Positions 3,619 to 39,833 of a stretch of 39,833 nt of DNA are shown in pieces. Made by a program: the position numbers and the translations under genes. The DNA comes from Gloeomargarita sp. SKYG116 (lineage in GTDB: Bacteria > Cyanobacteriota > Cyanobacteriia > Gloeomargaritales > Gloeomargaritaceae): contig JANWVM010000020.1 in assembly GCA_025056115.1 (NCBI GenBank), positions 1 to 39,833 on the forward strand, written 5' to 3'. Below the pieces are notes generated by a model that was not told the DNA's origin, searched no databases, and saw only the letters and a program-made list of their open reading frames with translations. Numbering within the stretch: the first letter of the stretch is position 1; each line of letters starts with the position of its first letter.

Positions 3619-4878
3619 ATGCCGGCAGCAGATGTTTTGATCCTGACCAATGGGCCTGGTGAGGTAGCAACATGGGTGCGTCCGGTCGTGCAACAATTGC
3701 GGCAAATTTGGGGTGAACGGCTGCGGATTTCGGTCGTGTTATCACCTTGTCCTCACAGTACCGGTTTGGAAACTCGCATTTTAGAACAAATACCTGGCGT
3801 CACCCGCGTACAAGCTGCTCAGCATTTCTGGCCGTTTTTACTTTGGGGACAAACAGTGGATCACTGGGATTGGTTGCCACGAGGCGTCGTCGTATTTTTA
3901 GGGGGCGACCCGTTTTACACGCTGGTGTGCGGCTGGCGCTTGGGTTACCCGACCTTGGCCTATGCCGAAGTACGTGTCCGCTGGCCCCAATGGTTTAGCG
4001 GCTTGGCCTTGGCCAACAAACACCTGCTGACACAAATGTCCCCTCAACACCAACGGCGGGCGCGAGTGGTTGGGGATTTGATGGTCGCAGCGGCAAGCGC
4101 TTGGGAAAAAACGGCTTCCCCCCGACGACAAATTGGCCTTTTACCTGGTTCCAAGACTTACAAGCTGACTCAGGGCGTTCCTTTTTGCTTGACGGTTGCA
4201 GCTTGGCTAAGTGAACGCCATCCAGATGTAGATTTTGTCCTGCCAGTGGCGCCGACCTTGACCCTCAACGATTTGGCCCGTTATGCCGACCCGAGAGTGA
4301 ACCCTTTGATCCAACGCCTGGGCTGGGAAACTGCTGTACTGACACACGACCAGCAAGAACATTACTTTGCCCTGAAAAATGGAACACGAGTGCGCTTAGT
4401 GACTGATTTTCCTGCCTACGAGGTTTTGCAACAGTGTTGTGTATGTGTGACGACGGTGGGCGCCAATACAGCCGAATTGACCGCTCTAGGGGTGCCGATG
4501 ATTGTTTTGTTGTTGACCCATCAACCCTTAGGCGAAGTCGCGCGGGCGTGGGATGGTCTTGCAGGAGTGGCTGCCAGTTTGCCAGGCGTGGGACGGGCGT
4601 TCGCAACGGTGTACGGGCAATGGATGCAACGGCGGTTGGGGCTGCTAGCTTGGCCGAATATTTGGGCAGGACGCATGGTCGTACCGGAGTTAATCGGAGC
4701 CATTGCGCCAGAAACGGTAGGGGAAATGATTAGCCAATACTTGCAGCATCCTGAACAATTGGCACACATCCAGGCAGAATTGCGGCAGGTGCGAGGACCA
4801 CTGGGGGCAGACCAAGCCGTAGCGCAGATGATAACGCAACTTTTGACTGATGGTAGGATAGATAAAGTCAACGAGTAG
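3619..4878 (+). CDS. LpxB-like glycosyltransferase (lipid-A-disaccharide synthase-related)
   Basis: Protein of 419 residues resembling the cyanobacterial family annotated as lipid-A-disaccharide synthase-related. It has the GT-B layout: an N-terminal Rossmann domain opening with DVLILTNGPGEVATWV (residues 5-20), and a C-terminal nucleotide-sugar-binding half with IGLLPGSKTYKL (about 172-183) and TTVGANTAELTALGVPMIV (about 275-293), typical of LpxB and MurG-type donors. The true substrate is unknown: this family is distinct from genuine LpxB, and many cyanobacteria have unusual lipid A. ATG directly follows the DUF3067 stop (TAAATG), with GGAG about 9 bases upstream. Its downstream partner is a small membrane protein. 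Confidence 0.75.
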   Translation: MPAADVLILTNGPGEVATWVRPVVQQLRQIWGERLRISVVLSPCPHSTGLETRILEQIPGVTRVQAAQHFWPFLLWGQTVDHWDWLPRGVVVFLGGDPFYTLVCGWRLGYPTLAYAEVRVRWPQWFSGLALANKHLLTQMSPQHQRRARVVGDLMVAAASAWEKTASPRRQIGLLPGSKTYKLTQGVPFCLTVAAWLSERHPDVDFVLPVAPTLTLNDLARYADPRVNPLIQRLGWETAVLTHDQQEHYFALKNGTRVRLVTDFPAYEVLQQCCVCVTTVGANTAELTALGVPMIVLLLTHQPLGEVARAWDGLAGVAASLPGVGRAFATVYGQWMQRRLGLLAWPNIWAGRMVVPELIGAIAPETVGEMISQYLQHPEQLAHIQAELRQVRGPLGADQAVAQMITQLLTDGRIDKVNE

Positions 4879-4887
4879 GTTACGTTC

Positions 4888-5259
4888 GTGTATTTTTACG
4901 GAGAACCGCCGTACTTATTGCTGGTCATGGGATTGCTGGCCGCTCTTACGTCTGGTAGTGCACTAAATGCGCTTCTCAAGCAATCTATCCAGTCGTGGCA
5001 AGCAAAACATTCGACGCGGACATTGGCCGACTTGCGACAGCAACTGCGGTTACCCGTAGTCGGTATTAACGGGGGCATGACCAGTTTTTTGACGGCTGGG
5101 TTAAATATCTTTGGGTTTCCTTGGCAATGGTCACTGGGTGCAGCAGTGGGTTTGTCTGTATTAACAACCCTGCTGGTTTGGGTGCAATTGAACCGGCTTT
5201 TGGGTGAATTGGAACGGGGGAATAGCGCCGCTTTATCGCTAGACAATCTCTTCTTCTAG
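4888..5259 (+). CDS. Small conserved-type membrane protein
   Basis: Protein of 123 residues starting at GTG, 9 bases after the stop of the LpxB-like gene, so probably the third gene of that operon. Hydrophobic segments lie at about residues 8-27 and, after a polar stretch with TLADLRQQLRLP, at about 63-100; both look membrane-spanning. The C-terminus is polar. I recognise no domain and assign no function. The position suggests a link with the envelope glycosyltransferase, which is inference only. Confidence 0.6.
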   Translation: MYFYGEPPYLLLVMGLLAALTSGSALNALLKQSIQSWQAKHSTRTLADLRQQLRLPVVGINGGMTSFLTAGLNIFGFPWQWSLGAAVGLSVLTTLLVWVQLNRLLGELERGNSAALSLDNLFF

Positions 5260-5681
5260 CAAATGCCATTCTTGATAAAATCTGACTTTGAGATAACAGC
5301 ATCTTCAGCTTGTGATAACGTTTGTAGCCAAGCAACTTTAGGACACCTCTATCAATTGCCAATTCACAGTCGCAGGGAGACCCAACCGCCTCTGCTTTTG
5401 CATGACCTCTGCATTCTCACTAGGAAATTTTCTACCAGCTTGAATCAACATAGCCAAGCCACTAAAAACCTGCAACAGGGCTGCGCCCTGCGACCCAGGA
5501 GACGACAAGCCCAGATGACTTAGCTATAGAGGTAGCCTTTCACTTGTCAGAAAAATTGTTTGAAAAAACCAACAACAGAGGTGTGTTCTGGGAGAGATGC
5601 TCAGGCTGGCATAAAAAAATGTCCGAGAGAGAAATTCCTCCCGAACCAGTGGATGGGCTTAGTGAAAAATTGCACGCTCAT
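5260..5681. other. Intergenic region with repeat copy B
   Basis: Lies between two convergent genes. It holds repeat copy B (5449-5528). I could not support any gene: the open frames here have no protein-like composition or ribosome-binding site. No clear terminator apart from the hairpin in the repeat. Confidence 0.5.
5449..5528 (-). repeat. Dispersed MITE-like repeat, copy B
   Basis: An 80-base copy on the minus strand. Its ends are TATAGCTAAG and, inverted, CATAGCCAAG (8 of 10 identical), the clearest terminal inverted repeats of the family. The core has a perfect CAGGGC-GCA-GCCCTG hairpin, and the inner part AAGTCATCTGGGCTTGTCGT aligns with copies A and D. Confidence 0.65.
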
Positions 5682-6251
5682 TCAGAACATGGCATTGATC
5701 TCAGCGCCACTTCGTTCCATGCGGTTATTGCCAGTCCGGCAATCATCGTTGTGGGGATTGCCATCAATGTAAATGTCAGGGTCGTAAGTAATGGTCACGA
5801 GGTACGTAGGTGGAAACTCCCCCTCGGCAGGCGAAGCACTGTACCAATCGCGCTCAAAAATGACCTGCACTTCCTCACCAGGCGCCAAATTCTGGAAGGG
5901 TCGCTGGGCAACGAGGCGAGGACGACCTCCCGGAACGTGTTCGTAAAGCGCCACGATTTGTTGGTTGGGCGTGGATTGAAACGCCGCTGTGCCTTGGTTG
6001 CGTACAATTCCTGTGACCCGCACTCGCCCCCGAAAACGAGTGGTACGGTGAAGCAAATTAAAGTGAATCGCCTGCACTGCCGGATCGGGACAAGTCAAAT
6101 CACGATGAGGGCGCACACGTCTCAATGGTTCCACTAGACGTGGATCAACGGGTTGTACACCCTCGTTAATGCGGATTTGGGCCAGTGCCGGGCCAACGCT
6201 GGTTGTCAACAGGCTCGTCGCCAATACCATCAAAGACATAAGACGTTGCAT
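5682..6251 (-). CDS. Exported protein with CARDB-like fold
   Basis: Protein of 189 residues with a signal peptide (MQRLMSLMVLATSLL, cleavage likely after PALA near residue 24), so it acts in the periplasm or is secreted. The mature part has the alternating pattern of a beta-sandwich: a segment FRGRVRVTGIVRNQGTAAF (about 73-91), then LAPGEEVQVIFERDW and PTYLVTITYDPDIYIDGN. This resembles CARDB-type adhesion modules, in which RNQGTA and PGE motifs are usual. The function is unknown. The ribosome-binding site is good, with GGGAGG about 9 bases before ATG. It is transcribed away from trpA, with no operon partner. Confidence 0.7.
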   Translation of the reverse strand: MQRLMSLMVLATSLLTTSVGPALAQIRINEGVQPVDPRLVEPLRRVRPHRDLTCPDPAVQAIHFNLLHRTTRFRGRVRVTGIVRNQGTAAFQSTPNQQIVALYEHVPGGRPRLVAQRPFQNLAPGEEVQVIFERDWYSASPAEGEFPPTYLVTITYDPDIYIDGNPHNDDCRTGNNRMERSGAEINAMF

Positions 6252-6426
6252 GGGTTACTCCCTCCCTTAATTGCAGAAACCTAGGAAATTTCATCCTAGT
6301 TATTTTCATCTTCCCTGAGTAAAATTCAACCGACAGTGAGCACTGCAATCGGGTTTCGTTGTTCTAGATCACAAACTCATCTCAACGTGGTTTAATAGGA
6401 ACTCAGCTTATTTTTGTGCCTTCTCG

Positions 6427-7221
6427 ATGCCCATTACTGTCTCGGAGCAATTTCGCCGCCTGAAACAACAATCCCGTTGTGCCCTGATTCCCTTTCTCAC
6501 CGCGGGCGACCCCGATTTGCGCACCACTGCCCAAGCCCTGCAAATGCTTGACCAGGCCGGTGCCGATTTGATTGAATTGGGAGTCCCCTACAGCGATCCA
6601 CTCGCCGATGGACCGGTCATTCAAGCCGCTGCCACCCGCGCTCTCCAAAAAGGCGTGACGCTAGAGAAAGTCCTCGACCTGGTGCATAATCTCTCTGGTC
6701 AGGTTCAGGCGCCAATTATCCTTTTCACTTACTACAACCCCATCCTCAACCGCGGCATCGAGCCATTCCTACAAACGATTAGCCAAGCCGGTGTACGGGG
6801 GTTAGTTGTGCCGGACCTGCCGCTGGAAGAAGCAGACGTGTTGTTAGAGCCTGCCCCCCGCTACGGCATCGAACTCACCTTGCTAGCAGCCCCAACCAGT
6901 CCCCCTGACCGTCTGGCAGCCATCGCGCAACAATCACAGGGTTTTATTTACCTGGTGAGTGTGACAGGCGTAACGGGTATGCGTCAAAAACTATCCCAGA
7001 AAATTCCGGCTCTGCTGACCCAACTGCACCAACTTACTACCAAGCCAATTGGCGTGGGGTTTGGTGTATCCCAACCAGAACAGGCTCAACAAATCCGGGA
7101 TTGGGGCGCTGATGCCGTAATCGTGGGGAGTGCCTTTGTGAAGCGATTGTCTGAAGAAGGCTTGCCATCCGTACAAACCTTTTGTCAACAGTTACGTCAG
7201 GCTTTGGATAGCAAAAATTGA
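6427..7221 (+). CDS. trpA: Tryptophan synthase alpha subunit
   Basis: Protein of 264 residues, the usual length. It cleaves indole-3-glycerol phosphate to indole and glyceraldehyde 3-phosphate and passes indole through a tunnel to TrpB in the cytosolic alpha2beta2 complex, the last step of tryptophan synthesis. Catalytic Glu50 and Asp61 sit in [15 protein letters not shown]. The TIM-barrel phosphate-binding segments GVTGMR and [11 protein letters not shown] are present near residues 181-219. trpB is not in this window, as is common in cyanobacteria where trp genes are scattered. Its 3' end overlaps the convergent glycosyltransferase gene by 25 bases. Confidence 0.97.
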
Positions 7222-8303
7222 TAGACGGCCTCCGTACGGTCCAGCATTTTTTCCACACTGAATTCCTGCAATAAACGCGCATAACCGGCTGCACCAAATT
7301 GGTTGCGTAAATCGGGATTAACCAATAACTGAATCACTGCCTGGGCCAATAACTCAGGGTTGCGGGGCGGCACGAGGAAACCCGTTTGCCCATCTATCAC
7401 AATTTCGGGAATAGCACTGACACAGGTAGCAACAATAGCTCGCTGGGCTGCCATCGCTTCTAGTAACACCAAACCAAAGCCTTCGTATAAAGAAGGATGC
7501 AAAAAGACATCAAATCCGGCCATCCAGCGGGCAGCATCGGGCTGATAACCCAGAAATTGGACGTAGGGCGTGATCTGCAGTCGGGCTGCCAATGCCATCA
7601 GTTTTTGGCGCAGGGGGCCATCGCCAAGAATCACCAAGCGCGCTTGGGGAACCTGCCGGTGAATCAGGGGAAACGCCCGCAGAGCAATGGCATGGGCTTT
7701 CTGCGGTACCAATCGCCCAACCATACCGATGACCAACGCCTCTGGCTCCCAGGGCCAGCGATAAGCGTCTAAAGGCAAGGGCGGCGGCGTGTAGCCGTAG
7801 GGAATCACACTGATTTTATGAGCCGGCACCCCCTGATACCGCATATTAAACGCCTTAAGATGTTCAGAAATTGTAATGACATGATCGATCCAGCGGGTAT
7901 TCCAGGCAATCAATGGGCGCATCGGCCAGCACCGCCGGTACGGATTGTCGTTGTGCCGCGTGCAAATAATTTTGACGTTGCCTGCCCACCGCGCTGCCAA
8001 CGCACCATACAAATCCGCATAGAGTAGATGTGTATGAACAATGTCATAACCGCCCTGGCGAACAATCTGGTAAATTTGGGGTAAGATTTGGGGTTCAAAT
8101 TCAGTGTAAATGCGCCGGTCAATCACGGGGACGCCCTGGGCGATAAGGGCTTTGGTGAGGGCGCTAGGGACTTCGTGGGGTTTGGTAAGGGCTAAGAAGG
8201 TGACATCGTAGCCGCGCTGTCGGAGTCCTGGTAGCAACTGCAGCAGATGTTTTTCCGACCCAGCAATCGGGCCCGCCCGTTGGATGTGCAAAATTTTGAC
8301 CAT
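7197..8303 (-). CDS. Glycosyltransferase family 4 (GT-B)
   Basis: Retaining glycosyltransferase of 368 residues from the ATG at 8303; a GTG three codons earlier is an alternative. The N-terminal domain starts [20 protein letters not shown], with the glycine loop seen in GT4 enzymes. The C-terminal domain has [15 protein letters not shown], then [20 protein letters not shown], containing the E-x7-E motif that contacts the nucleotide-sugar donor, followed by [13 protein letters not shown] and GFLVPP. The acceptor is unknown; polysaccharide or glycolipid synthesis is likely. It overlaps trpA tail to tail by 25 bases and is divergent from cobN with only 35 bases between starts, so the two share a very short promoter region. 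Confidence 0.88.
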
Positions 8304-35995: not shown

Positions 35996-37447
35996 ATGGT
36001 GGAGAAGAAAGACTTTCGCCGGCTAGACAAAGCCGTTTGGGAATTGCCGAAAGAAGCGCGCCCAGATATGCGAGTTCCCGCCCGCATCTTCGCCAGTGCG
36101 GAGATGTTGGATGCTGCTTTTCGTGACCGGACGGCGGAGCAGTTGGTCAACACAGCCACTTTGCCCGGTGTCCTCAAATATACGATGGCGATGCCTGATT
36201 TCCATGAGGGCTACGGTTTCCCTATTGGTGGTGTCGCAGCAATGGACGCGAAGACGGGCGTTATCTCCCCTGGCGGAGTTGGCTACGACATTAATTGCGG
36301 TGTCCGCCTGATGGCTTCCCATCTGGAGAAGGAGGAAGTCATGCCTCACCTTCGGGACTTGACCAACGCTCTCTACCGGGCTTGCCCCAGCGGTGTGGGC
36401 GAGTCTGGGCGTATTCGGGTCTCCTCACGCGAACTAGACGAACTGATAGTGGAAGGGTCCCGCTGGGCGCTGAAGCGAGGTCTGGCGCGAGAGGAAGACC
36501 TGGCCCACACCGAAGAGGAAGGTACGCTCCCCGGCGCTGATCCCAGCAAGGTGAGCGCCCGCGCCCGGGAACGGGGTGGCGACCAGATTGGCTCGCTAGG
36601 TGCGGGCAATCATTTTCTAGAGATTGATGTTGTGGAGGAAATTTTTGATCCCGAGGTAGCGAAAGCCTTCGGCCTGCAGGAAAACCAGATTGTGGTTCAG
36701 ATTCACTGTGGTTCTCGCGGCTTCGGCCATCAGATTTGCGACGACTACGTGAAAAGTCTCCAGTCATCTGTCCGCAAGTACGGCATTTCCATTCCCGACC
36801 GGGAACTGGTCTGTGCGCCTATTGACTCTCCAGAGGGTCGGGCCTACTACGGCGCAATGGCTTGTGCGGTCAACTACGCCTTTGTCAACCGTCAAGTATT
36901 AGCCATGGGTGTCCGGGAGGCTTTCCGGGATGTCCTCCAGGGCAAGGTTCGCAACTACGACCTTTACCAGGTGTACGATGTGGCCCACAATATCGCCAAA
37001 TTTGAAGAACACGAGATAGATGGCAAACAGGTGCAGGTCTGCGTCCACCGCAAGGGAGCCACGCGCGCCTTTGGCCCAGGCCGTCCTGAGGTGCCGGAAG
37101 CATACCGAGACGTAGGCCAGCCAGTCCTTGTCCCTGGTTCTATGGGGACGGCGTCCTACGTGCTGGTGGGGACAAAGAAGGCAATGGAACTCTCCTTCGG
37201 CTCTACTTGTCATGGTGCGGGGCGGGTGATGAGCCGGGCTCAGGCGCTGAAGAAAATCTGGGGCCCCGACCTGAAGCAGGAACTGGAAGAACGGGGGTTG
37301 GTCATTCGAGCTGGCAGCACCAAGGGATTGGCGGAGGAGGCGCCAGTGGCCTACAAGGATGTCAGCCAGGTCGTGGAGGTGGTGCAGAGTGCTGGGCTAG
37401 CTCGGAAAGTCGCTCGGTTGCGTCCCTTAGCTGTCATTAAGGGATAG
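35996..37447 (+). CDS. rtcB: tRNA-splicing/RNA-repair ligase RtcB
   Basis: GTP- and Mn-dependent ligase of 483 residues joining RNA 3'-phosphate or 2',3'-cyclic phosphate ends to 5'-OH ends. Metal ligands are seen: Asp98 and Cys101 in [12 protein letters not shown], His206 in GAGNHF, His237 in QIHCGSRG and His331 in [10 protein letters not shown]. His406 in [12 protein letters not shown] is the guanylylated residue. The protein should be active. The ribosome-binding site AAGGAGGTGA is unusually perfect for this window, where most genes have weak ones, which hints at transfer. With archease it forms a two-gene operon. The stop codon lies at most a few bases from the first degenerate CRISPR repeat. 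Confidence 0.96.
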
Positions 37448-37448
37448 T

Positions 37449-37486
37449 TTTTCCTAAATCTATAGATTTCCCCAGCGAGTAGAGAC
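37449..37486 (-). repeat. Terminal degenerate CRISPR repeat
   Basis: TATAGATTTCCCCAGCGAGT is intact but the 3' stem is AGAGAC instead of GGGGAC and the first bases diverge (TTTTTCCTAAATC). It begins within a few bases of the rtcB stop, so it is the leader-distal relic of the array. Confidence 0.8.
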
Positions 37487-37489
37487 GCG

Positions 37490-37532
37490 AAAAAACGGCC
37501 TGAGACTACCTAGGTGTTGGTCTGGGCCGTTT
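37490..37532 (-). terminator. Intrinsic terminator at the distal end of the CRISPR array
   Basis: Read on the minus strand, AAACGGCC (37532-37525) plus AGAC pairs with GTCT plus GGCCGTTT (37500-37493), a 12-bp stem with one small internal bulge and a 13-base loop, followed by six Ts at 37495-37490. The promoter-side arm shares its first bases with the GTTT of the adjacent degenerate repeat. It would stop the pre-crRNA transcript just before rtcB, and may also stop rtcB transcripts from the other side, though less well because only three Ts follow there. Confidence 0.7.
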
Positions 37533-37570
37533 CCAATTTATAGATTTAGATTTCCCCAGCGAGTGGGGAC
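37529..37570 (-). repeat. CRISPR repeat with a 6-base tandem duplication
   Basis: A 42-base copy in which TAGATT is duplicated (TATAGATTTAGATTTCCCC); the rest matches the consensus exactly, including the full stem. It borders the left side of the gene-bearing cassette. Confidence 0.85.
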
Positions 37571-37574
37571 AGAA

Positions 37575-37751
37575 TCACTGCTCGATTCCCAATATGCGGC
37601 GCTGTTCTGGGGTCAACTGATTGAGGTTAATCACATCGCCGGGCAGCTTGCCAGTCTCGATGTTGTAGATGAAGGTGGCCTTGTATCGGTCTACCTTGTA
37701 CTTTTCCATGAGATACCGAATTGCCGCTTCACGGTCTTGAGGCAGAGCCAT
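37575..37751 (-). CDS. 58-residue protein encoded inside the CRISPR array
   Basis: ATG at 37751 is preceded, six bases away, by a perfect AGGAGG (37763-37758), and the frame runs 58 codons to a TGA only 4 bases from the next repeat. The product is charged and protein-like: residues about 4-20 (PQDREAAIRYLMEKYKV) look helical, then DRYKATFIYNIETGKLPGD and a final LTPEQRRILGIEQ. I do not recognise a family; there is no signal peptide, no cysteine and no zinc motif. It lies on the strand inferred for the pre-crRNA, so the array transcript would serve as its mRNA. It could be a small regulator, an inhibitor or an unrelated captured gene; nothing in the sequence decides this. Confidence 0.7.
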   Translation of the reverse strand: MALPQDREAAIRYLMEKYKVDRYKATFIYNIETGKLPGDVINLNQLTPEQRRILGIEQ

Positions 37752-39420
37752 GTTTTTCCTCCTGTACTTCCAACAAGTTTCCAATTTATAGATTTCCCCA
37801 GCGAGTGGGGACGTAGAATTGCAACTGCGTTACCTTTACCAGCATACACGTTTCCAATTTATAGATTTCCCCAGCGAGTGGGGACATCCACGTGTTCTCG
37901 AAGGACGACGTGGAATACGTACGTTTCCAATTTATAGATTTCCCCAGCGAGTGGGGACTGCCAGACATAATCAAGCGCCCGCCGGAGAAACACGAGTTTC
38001 CAATTTATAGATTTCCCCAGCGAGTGGGGACTAAAGTTTGGGCCGGAATTCCCTGAATTCATAAAATATGTTTCCAATTTATAGATTTCCCCAGCGAGTG
38101 GGGACATCACTTTTATAGTTTTTGAATATAATATCATCAAAATTAAGTTTCCAATTTATAGATTTCCCCAGCGAGTGGGGACGAAATGGTTCGTGTTCGA
38201 GGCGGATGAAAGCTTCGCGTTTCCAATTTATAGATTTCCCCAGCGAGTGGGGACATATCAATACCCCCTCTAAGAAGAAGGTGACGAAGAAGTTTCCAAT
38301 TTATAGATTTCCCCAGCGAGTGGGGACACTTAAAGAAATCATTGAATTTGGTGGAGAATATTTGTTTCCAATTTATAGATTTCCCCAGCGAGTGGGGACG
38401 CTTGTTCTTGCGGCGCGGGTGCCACTCCCACCTGGTTTCCAATTTATAGATTTCCCCAGCGAGTGGGGACCAGGACGATTGACCCATATTGCATAAACAC
38501 TGTAAGTTTCCAATTTATAGATTTCCCCAGCGAGTGGGGACCAGCCCTGCCGTTCCGTCCCAGGAGCTAATGGCCATGTTTCCAATTTATAGATTTCCCC
38601 AGCGAGTGGGGACACGGGCTGGGACCGGAGCCACCCCCCGGTCTTTTCTGTTTCCAATTTATAGATTTCCCCAGCGAGTGGGGACAAGTACATCCGGTTC
38701 TATGAATACCAGAGCGACATGTTTCCAATTTATAGATTTCCCCAGCGAGTGGGGACCTGGAGGGGGAACGCGAAGGCATCCCGATCTACAAAAGTTTCCA
38801 ATTTATAGATTTCCCCAGCGAGTGGGGACCATACCGGCCTGCGAGGAGGCCGAGGGGCGGTATGTCGTTTCCAATTTATAGATTTCCCCAGCGAGTGGGG
38901 ACACCCAGCCGGATGGCACGGTGGCTATGCTGTCCAACGTTTCCAATTTATAGATTTCCCCAGCGAGTGGGGACACCGGGCGGGGTTCGCGCACAACGAT
39001 TGCCATTGCGTTTCCAATTTATAGATTTCCCCAGCGAGTGGGGACACGTTGATATTATCCTGCCGGGCGAGTCCGGACTAGGTTTCCAATTTATAGATTT
39101 CCCCAGCGAGTGGGGACTAGGTACCTTCCCGGGTTCTGCGGCGGGTTTTGGTGAGTTTCCAATTTATAGATTTCCCCAGCGAGTGGGGACTGGGAGAAGA
39201 CCCACCAGCGGTTGAACAAAGGGGAAGTTTCCAATTTATAGATTTCCCCAGCGAGTGGGGACCGGGGACAAAATCCAGGTCGGGGAACACGAGTTTGTGT
39301 TTCCAATTTATAGATTTCCCCAGCGAGTGGGGACCTGGGAAACGGTCACCGTGGAGCTGGTCGAAGAGCCGGTTTCCAATTTATAGATTTCCCCAGCGAG
39401 TGGGGACTGGTAAGCAAGAA

Positions 39421-39449
39421 GGAACCCCATAGCGGTATATGGGGGTTCC
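39421..39449 (-). other. Terminator-like hairpin inside the CRISPR array
   Basis: GGAACCCCATA and TATGGGGGTTCC form an 11-bp stem with a single bulged base and the loop GCGGTA. One arm lies in the spacer at 39408-39443 and the other overlaps the beginning of the mutated repeat. On the minus strand it is followed by TTCTTGCTT, a weak T-rich tail. Confidence 0.6.
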
Positions 39450-39479
39450 ATTTTATAGATTTCCCCAGCGAGTGGGGAA
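39444..39479 (-). repeat. Internal mutated CRISPR repeat
   Basis: It differs from consensus at three places: second base T to G, eighth base A to T, and the last base C to A. The hairpin stem TCCCC/GGGGA is intact. The next repeat at 39517-39552 also departs, with its first base T instead of G. All other complete repeats in the right part are consensus, so the changes are local. Confidence 0.85.
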
Positions 39480-39833
39480 GTTATACTTAGTTCACTTGAG
39501 GCTTTTCCTATACCGTTTTTCCAATTTATAGATTTCCCCAGCGAGTGGGGACCTTGGTGGTAGTTCGCCGGGGTCTGGTCGCCCTCTACGTTTCCAATTT
39601 ATAGATTTCCCCAGCGAGTGGGGACTCCAGCAGCTGAAAGAACTCATCAAGCTAGCAAAGAAGTTTCCAATTTATAGATTTCCCCAGCGAGTGGGGACAT
39701 ATATACCGGGAGTTGTTTACGTCCGGCCTGGACGAGTTTCCAATTTATAGATTTCCCCAGCGAGTGGGGACCTGGAGATGAACCCGGAGGGTGTGTCGTA
39801 CACCCAGGTTTCCAATTTATAGATTTCCCCAGC

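Follow-up and report, generated by a model that had tools for sequence, protein, structure and literature searches.

The CRISPR locus and its oversized interval

The window analyzed here is the whole stretch of 39,833 nucleotides of contig JANWVM010000020.1, from the draft assembly of one genome, Gloeomargarita sp. SKYG116 (G000). It ends inside a CRISPR array that continues past the contig end, with the leader outside the window. The following features are relevant:

35996..37447, plus strand: rtcB, the convergent neighbor of the array
about 37450..37486, minus strand: degenerate terminal repeat
37487..37534, minus strand: terminator-like hairpin and U-run in the next interval (fold prediction)
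37529..37570, minus strand: trailer-side variant repeat, 42 nt, with a 6-nt duplication, AAATCTAAATCT
37571..37776, minus strand: 206-nt interval in the position of a spacer, flanked by the array's final regular repeat and the variant trailer-side repeat (sequence and interval measurements)
37575..37751, minus strand: 58-codon gene, stop included, for protein P0001, MALPQDREAAIRYLMEKYKVDRYKATFIYNIETGKLPGDVINLNQLTPEQRRILGIEQ (homology to small phage genes)
37758..37763, minus strand: Shine-Dalgarno sequence AGGAGG, 6 nt ahead of the ATG (sequence)
37777..37812, minus strand: final regular repeat of the array, 36 nt, identical to the consensus, GTCCCCACTCGCTGGGGAAATCTATAAATTGGAAAC
37777..39833, minus strand: CRISPR array with 28 full repeats, a partial repeat where the contig ends, and spacers of 35-41 nt

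On the minus strand, the exact repeat (37812-37777) is followed by 13 nt, the AGGAGG (37763-37758), 6 nt, the ATG at 37751, 58 codons, a stop (37577-37575), 4 nt and the variant repeat (37570-37529). A preliminary description of this DNA had reported a gene with this layout in a 206-base segment occupying the place of a spacer, and the sequence confirms both points. It had also called the gene embedded in the array; the gene does lie within the array, but at its leader-distal end rather than in the middle. The interval (37571-37776) is the leader-distal one, ahead of the trailer repeat and terminator. The 42-nt interval that comes next (37528-37487) is terminator-like, the hairpin at 37487-37534 having a predicted energy of -16.8 kcal/mol (z -3.1) and being followed by a U-run, and the fold of the 206-nt interval with its flanking repeats is unremarkable (z -0.9).

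By position, between two repeats, the interval fits a CRISPR spacer; by length, which is set by the integrase, it does not. The 27 regular spacers in the window measure 35-41 nt (mean 36.6), as against 206 nt, and none of the roughly 130 array intervals in four other genomes of the genus (G001, G002, G004 and G005; 34-42 nt) exceeds 42 nt.

The orientation of the array was taken from relatives with the same repeat, in which leaders stand upstream of GTCCCCACT...GGAAAC (GTCCCC...); in two of these (G002 and G005) cas2, and cas1, lie ahead of the array leader. The minus strand is therefore the pre-crRNA strand and the 206-nt interval is leader-distal, which bears out the earlier assignment of the gene to the pre-crRNA strand and establishes its position and strand. 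A III-B cmr operon and cas1-cas2 adjoin the arrays of relatives carrying nearly the same repeat, and the window's own genome encodes an intact Cas10b. The same genome holds another Cas10-like frame of type III, which is shorter, at 502 aa (C208 4259-5464). Convincing phage matches were not found for the other spacers of the array.

Several further observations concern the repeats. Recognizable copies of GTCCCCACTCGCTGGGGAAATCTATAAATTGGAAAC number 29 in the genome, 28 of them in the window. Solitary copies outside arrays were seen at L044 (G000 C192:51128-51163), L050, L051 (G003), L052 (G002) and L053 (G005); L044 corresponds to the site of a three-repeat array in G001, and L053 has leader-like sequence upstream. 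The rtcB counterpart in the nearest relative, G001, is 93% identical and is followed by just one shrunken repeat. In G005 (L048 3544-4078), the last repeat of an array directly abuts a 5'-truncated coding frame whose similarity to immunity proteins of the SMI1/KNR4 (SUKH-1) kind is weak, the E of 0.008 falling short of the Pfam cut-off. Within the window's own array, in the region 39409-39480, a spacer contains an internal inverted repeat (CCCCATATACC...TATGGGG) beside a changed repeat (39444-39479, three mismatches), and the next repeat, at 39517, deviates too; this hairpin might stop or divert transcription.

P0001 is a real gene with phage homologs

We considered whether the 58-codon frame might be a chance reading frame in non-coding array DNA. 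Under lenient rules such open frames do occur at the per-cent level: 56 of 20,000 shuffles of the segment held one, and 0.8% of random 206-nt windows of viral DNA held the complete unit. Under strict rules (AGGAGG and an ATG-initiated ORF of at least 50 codons), the counts fell to 0 of 20,000 shuffles and 0.02% of viral windows. However, P0001 is significantly homologous to phage proteins across most of its length. Homology decides the matter, and the frame is therefore a real gene; a chance origin seems next to impossible, the homology already refuting it. The shuffles, the viral-window rates and the genuine homologs all support the original view that the arrangement is not accidental.

The homologs emerged stepwise. 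A first tblastn search gave one marginal match, on a 106-kb Tenderia plasmid (E = 0.01), and a degenerate DNA scan of IMG/VR built from the shared motif yielded six small viral proteins. A profile made from seven phage proteins (six from the viral contigs and one from Chromatiales, with P0001 left out) gave P0001 a score of 44.3 bits in a search of 14,073 frames (E = 7e-12), and 2,000 shuffled versions that kept the seven motif residues reached at most 29.4 bits. Conversely, phmmer with P0001 alone against 14,318 viral frames gave 19 matches (best E = 7e-5), every one directly behind a gene for a MuF-HExxH protein. Identity between P0001 and known members is 23-36%. With 58 aa and its own start and stop, P0001 resembles the stand-alone genes of this family (about 50-70 aa), and its sequence fits the profile of the small proteins behind MuF-HExxH. 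Its position does not fit, as the gene sits in a CRISPR array rather than directly after a MuF-HExxH gene, and a search of its own genome found no MuF-HExxH domain.

The predicted structure of P0001 (mean pLDDT 88) has helices at residues 7-18, 22-33 and 48-53, the third being short. Fold searches gave no convincing structural neighbor, sequence searches of the PDB gave nothing usable, and P0001 falls in no family of Pfam, NCBIfam, PADLOC or PHROGs. Weak matches in S-CAM7 and in helicase and kinase frames of cyanobacteria lay inside long unrelated proteins and were set aside as chance.

The protein was compared with cyanobacteria as well as phages, as the preliminary description had proposed; the homologs were those of phages, and no further copy turned up in 390 cyanobacterial genomes or in its own genus. 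A search for the cassette in close relatives likewise found no carrier. Judged by these comparisons, it is no house gene of cyanobacteria. The concern had been raised that homologs might exist only as fragments of longer genes, but many stand alone, against one in-frame case (L141). In that case, a frame of 1007 codons (4246-7269) carries a P0001-family domain in frame at its end. By eye the long frame is possibly a restriction-enzyme-like protein, and the arrangement is either a fusion or an overlapping start.

The family lies behind MuF-HExxH head genes

The link of this family to phage head genes is established by gene order. On all seven contigs, the six viral ones and the one from Chromatiales, the small gene lies immediately 3' of a MuF-HExxH gene and usually overlaps its stop. 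The upstream gene has about 510-610 codons (226 in one truncated copy), beginning as a MuF-type head-morphogenesis protein and ending in an HExxH domain, with portal genes upstream of it where checked. In an independent collection of 80 viral contigs gathered through the MuF C-terminal motif, HExxH was present in 79 and a P0001-family gene lay directly downstream in 30; other contigs have other small ORFs behind MuF-HExxH. The single cyanobacterial MuF-HExxH found (G232) is followed by an unrelated small ORF. Some members of the family are not next to a MuF gene at all, namely those on the Tenderia plasmid and at L141 and L138. As a side product, the roughly 80 viral MuF-HExxH genes with their varied small ORFs (L161-L235) could be used directly to study pairs of MuF toxins and immunity proteins.

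Polymorphic toxins of the MuF type in temperate phages are the subject of Jamet et al. (2017, PMC5576092), who propose immunity genes for them and give metallopeptidase domains in 20% of MuF toxins. The hypothesis we put forward is that the P0001 family comprises immunity proteins of MuF toxins.

A probable capture from a phage genome

The interval is probably DNA captured from the genome of a tailed phage, with one intact head-module gene in it. The captured piece may contain a complete small gene by chance, or may have been retained for it. The piece would have taken a spacer's position in a type III-B array, at the end far from the leader. It may have come in as an oversized prespacer, or repeats may have recombined, one of them perhaps carried by a phage. 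From the polarity of the array, we infer that the gene would be transcribed in sense within the pre-crRNA; cuts at the flanking repeats would then release about 240 nt of RNA, in which a strong ribosome-binding site precedes the full reading frame. Having the same sense as phage mRNA, the interval should be useless as a guide against it, and would therefore be either a silent relic or the source of a weakly translated phage protein. The idea of a captured cargo gene had been among those first offered, and it gains support from the homologs, small genes that stand alone in phage head modules. For two other ideas, a regulator acting on the array or on Cas proteins and a CRISPR inhibitor, we found no support.

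Some findings speak against capture. P0001 is only distantly similar to known members, at the identities given above, and a closely related donor phage was not found in the collections searched. The phage genes overlap the muf stop and lack an AGGAGG, and the 25 nt upstream differ here. Finally, judging by the viral-window rates, a random fragment is unlikely to hold a whole gene that fills the interval so exactly.

The interval could instead be an ordinary immune memory, an overly long yet working anti-phage spacer, as its phage-like content and the repeats on both sides would suggest. However, 206 nt stands against 35-41 nt in the window and at most 42 nt in relatives, and near-identical DNA that could serve as a protospacer was not found in the collections searched, which held homologous genes only. 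DNA matches to Klebsiella phages covered only 43 nt and were dismissed as chance. A type III crRNA has to be antisense to the mRNA that it targets. The associated system is III-B, and a crRNA from this interval would match phage mRNA in sense; as a type III guide against phage mRNA the interval should therefore be useless. We regard an ordinary memory as very unlikely.

The neat placement of the gene between repeats would be accounted for if a phage-borne mini-array, or a solitary repeat beside the gene, had recombined with the host array and imported the gene. The trailer-side repeat deviates from consensus by its 6-nt duplication, and solitary repeats are known in phages (PMC10651486). Against this, nothing repeat-like was present in the viral homolog loci examined, although these belong to distant phages of other hosts. 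Such an import seems distinctly improbable.

Whether the gene has a present function is a related matter. The host may keep the gene and translate it from the pre-crRNA because the product is protective, most plausibly by giving immunity to the HExxH domain of MuF proteins that related phages inject. The intact start and stop, the perfect Shine-Dalgarno sequence, the exact fit of the gene to its interval, its place at the oldest array end in sense with the transcript, and the location of the family directly behind MuF-HExxH genes are all consistent with this, as is the share of metallopeptidase domains among MuF toxins in Jamet et al. (2017, PMC5576092). On the other hand, the case is known from one genome, the family gene is present in just 30 of 80 MuF contigs, the small ORF behind the cyanobacterial MuF-HExxH is unrelated, and members occur away from MuF. 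Such domestication is unlikely, and a present function of any kind is possible at a similarly low level; a captured relic without present function appears considerably likelier than a domesticated gene. Both domestication and import with a phage-borne repeat are sub-cases of phage capture, and our confidence in them partly overlaps with that in capture itself.

Implications

CRISPR memories are kept short and uniform in length. Here a complete phage gene, start signals included, sits where a spacer would be, which shows that arrays can accommodate protein-coding cargo and makes one ask whether a pre-crRNA can double as an mRNA. That one transcript might yield both crRNAs and a protein is possible and compatible with the sequence. 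It is a doubtful further step that the array serves as a carrier, its pre-crRNA also being an mRNA and the phage-derived protein being protective, for example against an injected MuF metallopeptidase. In addition, an unnamed small protein family tied to phage MuF-HExxH head proteins supplies concrete candidates for the proposed MuF toxin/immunity pairs.

Relation to known systems

No precedent for genes within CRISPR arrays or for oversized spacers was found in the literature searched. The interval shares with CRISPR spacers its place between two repeats and its phage-like content, but differs in its 206 nt (versus 35-41), in holding a complete sense gene and in the lack of a protospacer in the collections. 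Like anti-CRISPR proteins, P0001 is a very small phage protein; no relation to a known anti-CRISPR family turned up in PADLOC, Pfam, NCBIfam or PHROGs, no link by context was seen, and its homologs belong to head modules. Phage RNA anti-CRISPRs and solitary repeats (PMC10651486) also link phage genes with CRISPR repeats, whereas here both repeats and gene are in a host array. There is also a likeness to the small genes behind MuF head genes (proposed immunity genes; Jamet et al. 2017, PMC5576092). The P0001 gene stands apart from these in lying alone in a CRISPR array, without muf, and in having its own AGGAGG where the phage genes overlap the muf stop codon; it has the same size and two-helix core, shares the motif A-x-F-x3-I-E-x-G-x3-G-D, and scores significantly against their profile.
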